Shown: positions 14,769 to 44,217 of the stretch, one piece after another | How the letters are laid out: each line of letters opens with the position of its first letter | Position numbering within the stretch: position 1 is the stretch's first letter | Notes under the pieces: generated by a model | Database searches by the model: none | Seen by the model: the letters and a program-made list of their open reading frames with translations, nothing else | Told to the model about the DNA's origin: nothing | DNA from: Effrenium voratum | Lineage: Eukaryota; Sar; Dinophyceae; Suessiales; Symbiodiniaceae | Direction of reading: 5' to 3' | DNA length: 64,000 nucleotides | NCBI GenBank assembly: GCA_963377175.1 | Contig: CAUJNA010003057.1 | Location: 416,001 to 480,000 of the forward strand | Made by a program: the position numbers and the translations under genes

Positions 14769-14843
14769 GCCCCAGCGAGGTGCTCGCGGACCCCCGCGGC
14801 GCCGCGGCCTGCGCCACCCACCAGGCCCTCGACCTCCTGGGAG
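14769..14843 (+). CDS. ABC1 kinase exon 1 (first recognised)
   Basis: Reads PSEVLADPRGAAACATHQAL then DLLG, the helix just before the KxGQ helix. Acceptor AG choices lie at 14767-14779 after a pyrimidine/C-rich tract, so the left edge is uncertain. The donor is G|GC, leaving one base, which joins exon 2 to give LLGGGFVK. This phase match is strong support. Confidence 0.75.

Positions 14844-44217: not shown

Follow-up and report, generated by a model that had tools for sequence, protein, structure and literature searches.

A probable ABC1-type kinase gene divided among small exons in a 64-kb stretch of the Effrenium voratum genome

The forward strand of a 64,000-nucleotide stretch of the Effrenium voratum genome (hereafter the window) carries a series of short GC-rich islands that are, with a probability put at about 0.94, the exons of a single nuclear dinoflagellate gene encoding an ABC1 atypical kinase (ABC1K/AarF-type). 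The sequence, the order of the islands, the agreement of their frames and the family match are directly established, and the probability spans also the predicted transcription, splicing and product role. Judged from sequence, the ABC1-type kinase gene, with its tiny exons and long introns, is very probably real; as modelled, it is incomplete at both ends. The case shows that raw sequence is enough to recover a gene whose exons of 27–96 nt are scattered across more than 33 kb, and that the result can be verified by spliced profile alignment. For dinoflagellate biology the gene represents one further intron-rich gene of the usual kind.

Exon model and family match

The model comprises 17 exons (1071 nt in total) that join without a stop in 356 codons and with consistent frame phases at all 16 joins, in keeping with the agreement claimed for nearly every junction by the initial annotation. 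That annotation described 17 exons also but did not list them, and no one-to-one match with the present 17 can be made. Exon GC is 0.67, GC at third codon positions (GC3) 0.80 and intron GC 0.50, with a mean intron of ∼2.0 kb (values calculated with exon 11 taken three bases longer). Acceptors are of the form AG/G in 16 of the 17 exons, and the donors of the 16 introns comprise nine GC, six GA and one GT, the choice of junction being partly the author's. The exons cover 3.2% of 33.4 kb; the initial annotation gave under 4% of its 29.4-kb span. Each is detailed below, where ranks are those from the per-exon scans described in the following section, with the 12-relative profile first and the 40-relative profile second.

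14769..14843, + strand: exon 1, PSEVLADPRGAAACATHQALDLLG; GC donor; AG/G acceptor; ranks 13 and 18
16063..16151, + strand: exon 2, GGFVKMAQ...RGALA, KxGQ region; GA donor; AG/G acceptor; ranks 1 (18.5 bits) and 1 (31.2 bits)
18600..18650, + strand: exon 3, AVTPPAPLDDIERILLE; GA donor; AG/G acceptor; ranks 2 and 1
19844..19918, + strand: exon 4, DLGLSLQDLFDDFEARPIAAASIAQ, with the A-rich loop AAAS; GC donor; AG/G acceptor; ranks 1 (42.4 bits) and 1 (45.7 bits)
21366..21401, + strand: exon 5, VHAARLHSGEPC; GT donor (alternative at 21392, GA donor); AG/G acceptor; rank 1 in both scans
23191..23286, + strand: exon 6, VVKVLRP...LVLG, with the nucleotide-binding lysine; AG/G acceptor; rank 1 in both scans; 3' edge uncertain
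25358..25417, + strand: exon 7, ELQRAVMAECDLSVERQNIE, ExD motif; GA donor; AG/G acceptor; rank 1 in both scans
27531..27599, + strand: exon 8, VTLKRARLREAVRVPRTFTKASS; GC donor; AG/G acceptor; ranks 1 and 4
28881..28958, + strand: exon 9, SRVLTMERIHGVAFSEICARHEAHFA; GC donor; the sole AG/T acceptor; rank 1 in both scans
29634..29699, + strand: exon 10, AALTSALTVAALSVIDGTAIFH; GC donor; ranks 1 and 11; 5' edge differs among runs
30784..30843, + strand: exon 11, ADLHAGNMIAVPGGSCGNGT, with the catalytic loop; GA donor; AG/G acceptor; rank 1 with both profiles; 3' edge fixed by the reading frame
34199..34264, + strand: exon 12, AFIDFGCCGKLPPALRGTLLMQ, DFG motif; GC donor; AG/G acceptor; rank 1 in both scans
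41548..41595, + strand: exon 13 (tentative), GFAFALQKLPELGTGQ; GC donor; AG/G acceptor and frame fit, by eye; ranks 79 and 20018
42568..42594, + strand: exon 14 (tentative), ALDVDALAE; GA donor; AG/G acceptor, taken from spliced alignment; ranks 50 and 2732
43415..43463, + strand: exon 15 (tentative), DMKPVLRELQRLNPFR plus a split Gly; GC donor; AG/G acceptor; ranks 199 and 55
44146..44219, + strand: exon 16, ARDPMSPALHMELFRLQGVLCRHG, from spliced alignment; GC donor; AG/G acceptor; ranks 45 and 9
48142..48193, + strand: exon 17, VQLPREFALLMKTLGQF; AG/G acceptor; rank 1 in both scans; past the span of the initial annotation

Nine of the 11 amino acid strings quoted in the initial annotation are contiguous on the + strand and in the order given, while the remaining two exist only across joins: FHADLHAGN arises where exon 10 is joined to exon 11 (29699 to 30784), and DVDALAEDMKPVLREL at the join of 42594 to 43415. 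The two split glycine codons reported previously, at exons 1/2 and 16/17, are possible at 1/2 and 15/16 in the present numbering.

Not all exons are equally well delimited. Exon 1 was chosen in two of six settings of an N-terminal spliced alignment, and its last part in another run also. Exon 8 was selected as listed when the AG/G rule was applied and in a shorter form (27562) without it, whereas exon 9 was recovered only when a bare AG was required. Exons 13–15 are regarded as tentative, the case for them being mainly that their frames and splice sites fit and that they resemble the family; neither exon 13 nor exon 15 was selected in spliced alignment of the longer chain. Between exons 6 and 7, ∼13 residues are absent relative to L095, an intronless sequence from the same assembly that is considered below. 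A possible 18-nt micro-exon encoding DVVLQM, with an AG/G acceptor and a GTGAGC donor, was noted by eye at 24581–24598, outside of the model, and could fill part of this gap.

Family searches were conducted with a hand-joined protein of 306 residues from 15 islands. This protein matched PF03109 (ABC1) with an E-value of 1.7e-33 and 116.2 bits, compared with a curated cut-off of 22.9, and its first and second parts each exceeded the cut-off when searched alone (1.3e-20 and 74 bits, and 2.8e-8 and 33.7 bits, respectively). The same joined, incomplete protein scored 113.4 bits against TIGR01982 (UbiB) and so missed the equivalog cut-off of 487.55. The ABC1 half of the original ABC1/UbiB assignment is accordingly upheld by the Pfam match, whereas the sub-threshold TIGR01982 score lowers, but given the incomplete protein does not settle, the case for a UbiB in the strict sense. 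The joined protein also matched six distinct sequences of solved structure, COQ8A and 7cy2, a member of the ABC1 family, being among them.

Features common to the ABC1 family (PF03109; AarF/ABC1/UbiB, COQ8 and plant ABC1K) are present in the joined exons, with the A-rich loop AAAS, VVKV, ECD, HADLHAGN and DFG aligning to family columns, and the C-terminal LPREFALL shared also. The nucleotide-binding lysine, ExD, HADLHAGN and DFG are all retained. The gene differs from the family at large in being cut into at least 17 small exons, and in the KxGQ motif, which is named for the ABC1/UbiB superfamily in PMC7877690: here it reads KMAQ, so that the lysine and glutamine are kept while glycine is replaced by alanine. 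A similar KLAQ occurs in 9 of 95 aligned relatives, and since all nine lie outside the clade of the window's protein, the substitution does not mark that clade.

ABC1Ks are described in PMC4915526 as proteins of mitochondria or plastids with roles in quinone and prenyl-lipid metabolism. By analogy, the product of the present gene would be an organellar ABC1K acting in quinone or prenyl-lipid metabolism; no targeting sequence was found in the window's protein, because the 5' exons are missing. Transcription would extend over more than 33 kb, and the introns, with their GC, GA or GT donors and AG/G acceptors, would presumably be removed by the spliceosome. Among the papers listed in a literature search, none was by its title on the ABC1K/UbiB family in dinoflagellates; genome annotations fell outside its scope, so newness is not implied.

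Controls and extent of the gene

Since the frames had been picked with the family already known, controls against chance assembly were built. A profile of 12 relatives was compiled from the 24 prokaryotic plasmid records retrieved by tblastn with the joined protein, the choice being made before exon 17 was known, and a second from 40 out of 92 relatives; the relatives behind both profiles were themselves found using the joined protein. Profiles were aligned with the DNA by a spliced procedure allowing GT, GC or GA donors and an AG/G acceptor. With the 12-relative profile, the region 14000–45000 scored 112.3 bits, compared with 20.0 for the reverse strand, 17.7 for the upstream 14 kb, 18.9 for the downstream 19 kb and 22.8 for the reversed profile. 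Maxima of 25.6, 34.9 and 29.4 bits were observed with 20 dinucleotide shuffles, 40 local shuffles and 20 column permutations, respectively, such that the best of all 80 shuffled or permuted controls reached 34.9 bits. When any AG was accepted, the real sequence scored 142.5 bits against a maximum of 36.5 in the same 80 controls. The initial proposal of an ABC1 kinase encoded by small, ordered exons is hence sustained by both the Pfam match and the spliced alignment.

Additionally, the profile columns belonging to each exon were scored at ∼127,900 places on both strands of the window. With the 12-relative profile, the modelled position ranked first for 11 of the 17 exons (2, 4–12 and 17), all collinear, with exons 1, 3, 13, 14, 15 and 16 ranking 13, 2, 79, 50, 199 and 45. 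The 40-relative profile placed 10 exons first (2–7, 9, 11, 12 and 17), again collinear; exons 1, 8, 10, 15 and 16 ranked 18, 4, 11, 55 and 9, and exons 13 and 14 ranked 20018 and 2732. These ranks somewhat favour the model exons, the columns having been assigned via alignment of the joined protein with the profile, and several junctions were chosen by the author with the AG/G rule and homolog fit in mind.

The initial annotation closed the gene at 44217. Exon 17, which continues the profile at 48142–48193 and matches LPREFALL of L095, indicates that this position very probably lies inside the gene, as judged by profile match. The exon was first suggested by a C-terminal spliced alignment whose path scored 19.9 bits versus 20.2 for the reverse strand at the standard intron cost; support for it derives instead from the longer spliced-alignment chain, in which an exon starting at 48142 was retained at all four settings, and from the per-exon scans, where its columns scored 19.2 versus 15.5 bits for the next-best place with the 12-relative profile and 26.6 versus 17.3 with the 40-relative profile. 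The gene would thereby run beyond 44217 to at least 48193, with introns that carry decayed repeat arrays and one unrecognised open frame.

Attempts to extend the model in either direction were unconvincing. N-terminal spliced alignment upstream of 14769 yielded at most 25.2 bits (19.8 on the reverse strand) with AG/G and 28.4 bits (26.9) with any AG, whereas C-terminal scores downstream of 48193 were similar to those of the reverse strand at every setting (e.g. 24.5 versus 24.4, and 18.1 versus 18.4). Neither a start nor a stop codon was found for the gene. For want of proof, a candidate exon at 53641 (LSPDF) was not accepted. Islands extending the DFG exon (34150–45100, 12-relative profile), which appeared at the loosest setting only, were rejected, and so were filler exons (e.g. 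ETNHKQFLTLQ, RV, DAKRL and a piece of the RCC1 frame), which varied by setting or were too short to test.

Intron content, Suessiales gene structure and alternative readings

Three features of note lie within the introns.

31645..32550, + strand: open frame in intron 11, HPP-like by eye; unrecognised by the libraries searched
39071..40549, + strand: RCC1-like repeat frame in intron 12, first ATG at 39122; PF13540, 1.8e-25
45142..47124, + strand: ankyrin-repeat array in intron 16; PF12796, 8.9e-29 and 1.2e-51, in two open parts

The first frame, which we take to resemble HPP by eye, gave no match in Pfam, NCBIfam, the PDB or plasmid tblastn, and the label is accordingly left unconfirmed by these searches. 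A single-sequence structure model was helical with low confidence (mean pLDDT 52), and the length of the frame is within chance expectation (in 30 Markov copies, the longest stop-to-stop frame averaged 243 and reached at most 344). The RCC1-like repeats have a 123-nt unit and go on in other frames to ∼40860, the frame being lost near 40550 and 40770; the N-terminus shows a weak ubiquitin-like match that, at 21.1 bits (E 0.00027), falls short of the 25.4-bit cut-off. The ankyrin array consists of 99-nt repeats with an in-frame stop and frameshifts, and looks decayed. A long CAAT-type array with an open frame of SINQ repeats was observed also in intron 12 (36780–37230), and a 101-nt repeat occurs twice in intron 11 (33056–33155 and 33954–34051, 84% identity). 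Upstream of the modelled exons, a 252-aa open frame at 7697–8455 has a C-rich part like a CCCH zinc finger, with weak Pfam matches (E 0.049 and 2.1). Scans for tRNAs and against Rfam gave no match.

The structure of the gene is of a type already published for the group. PMC11114475 gives means for E. voratum of 20 kb and 18 introns per gene, with 92% of the length as intron, and describes the RCC1521 assembly as 1.2 Gb in 3881 scaffolds with a GC content of 50.8%; the GC, length and intron share of the window's gene are consistent with these values. Figures given for four Suessiales genomes in PMC10666404 include AGG acceptors at 96–97%, donors of GC (44–58%), GT (24–37%) and GA (17–20%), and mean exons of 99–120 nt. 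For two isolates of Polarella glacialis, PMC7245778 reports that 8.4% and 6.5% of genes are nested in introns, with up to 18 and 24 nested genes per gene and full-length transcript support, and frames nested within introns are on these data a known phenomenon. The window's gene shares with Effrenium and other Suessiales the long introns, exons of ∼100 nt, GC and GA donors, AG/G acceptors and nested genes. It follows the pattern while being GT-poor and GA-rich relative to the published proportions, and at 33 kb it exceeds the E. voratum mean, with GT donors rarer, yet is of the same kind. Since each of these traits (introns of great length, small exons, unusual donors, nested genes) has been published for these algae, the gene is considered ordinary for the group: very probably real, correctly recognised and of a kind usual in dinoflagellates. 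The initial annotation had stressed also that annotation based on open reading frames would miss it entirely. Indeed, the window's contig is not among the listed six-frame PF03109 matches at E ≤0.001, and so an exon-wise search misses the gene; being hidden in this sense is unremarkable, however, because the gene predictors described for dinoflagellates in PMC10666404 and PMC5177918 are adapted to non-canonical donors.

No relic of the dinoflagellate spliced leader was detected in the genomic sequence at up to three mismatches. With regard to the origin of the introns, in-register repeat runs at intron ends averaged 3.75 versus 3.10 ± 0.22 after shuffling (0.3% of 2000; exon 11 three bases off). 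Insertion-derived introns would show such an excess, but since some junctions were author-chosen, it is a weak sign. A filtered self-comparison listed four repeats, none linking two different introns of this gene.

Three other readings of the islands were weighed. The locus could be a pseudogene, i.e. an ABC1 gene of the same structure that has fallen silent and whose exons have no visible decay as yet. A recently dead gene would have an identical appearance, between 17,822 and 78,762 putative pseudogenes are reported for E. voratum assemblies in PMC11114475, some C-terminal exons are weak in the per-exon scans and two decayed repeat arrays lie inside the introns. However, 17 exons join without a stop or frame break, the nucleotide-binding lysine, ExD, HADLHAGN and DFG are intact, and GC3 stands at 0.80 against an intron GC of 0.50, such that this reading is considered improbable. 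Still less probable is that the N- and C-terminal exon groups belong to two genes on separate transcripts, the break falling at intron 12 (7.3 kb) or at intron 16 (3.9 kb). The size of these gaps, the other repeat arrays within them and the weakness of exons 13–15 could feasibly be read in this way, but order and frame carry on across the gaps, exon 17 is the window's best place for the next expected columns, and intron-nested genes are common in Polarella at the frequencies given in PMC7245778. That ABC1-like strings were simply culled by chance from many frames, a concern because choosing frames with the family known inflates the Pfam E-value, is contradicted by the spliced-alignment controls and per-exon scans and can be virtually dismissed.

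Relatives, paralog and tree

The single ABC1K gene preferred here was compared with other ABC1 sequences. A six-frame PF03109 search of the same assembly (1,155,904,702 bases in 3699 contigs) returned 29 matches at E ≤0.001 among the matches listed. Also in this assembly, L095 (C1209:79491-83225) is an intronless ABC1 frame of 550 aa with, by eye, a hydrophobic leader. It is 36% identical to the window's protein over 365 aligned positions and, from sequence comparison, appears to be its same-assembly intronless paralog: the two share the C-terminal motif and the assembly, and differ in that L095 has no introns and carries KLGQ rather than KMAQ. As an intronless paralog, L095 may aid studies of intron gain.

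A tree built on 340 columns grouped the protein of the window with L095 and 13 proteobacterial sequences (L013–L019, L022–L024, L026, L029 and L036) with a local support of 0.93. Twelve of the 13 are gammaproteobacterial by name (e.g. Pseudomaricurvus, Marinobacter, Psychrobacter and Acinetobacter), while L018 is named as Proteobacteria only. L095 was the sole further eukaryotic sequence in this tree, so the grouping leaves the origin of the window's gene undecided. The proteobacterial AarF-type kinases are 28–33% identical to the window's protein in the best segment and comprise the top prokaryotic matches by E-value, and HADLHAGN is identical in nine of these relatives; unlike the split gene of the window, the proteobacterial genes are single open frames.

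A speculative and rather unlikely scenario would have the ABC1K pair diverge as an intronless copy, L095, and a copy in which introner-like insertion at AG/G sites added at least 16 introns, which later received same-strand inserts that decayed. Of the sequences compared, proteobacterial AarF would be the nearest to this ABC1K lineage. If this were true, the pair would constitute a small natural experiment in intron gain and retroposition.

Two other loci of the assembly, L093 (C3134) and L094 (C2223), have by eye their genes arranged as in bacterial ubiE-ubiB regions; both lie on long contigs that are probably bacterial contaminants. On contig C1524, six ABC1-like fragments with identical scores lie on one strand between 32568 and 106768, spaced 12–20 kb apart, in what looks like a tandem duplication.
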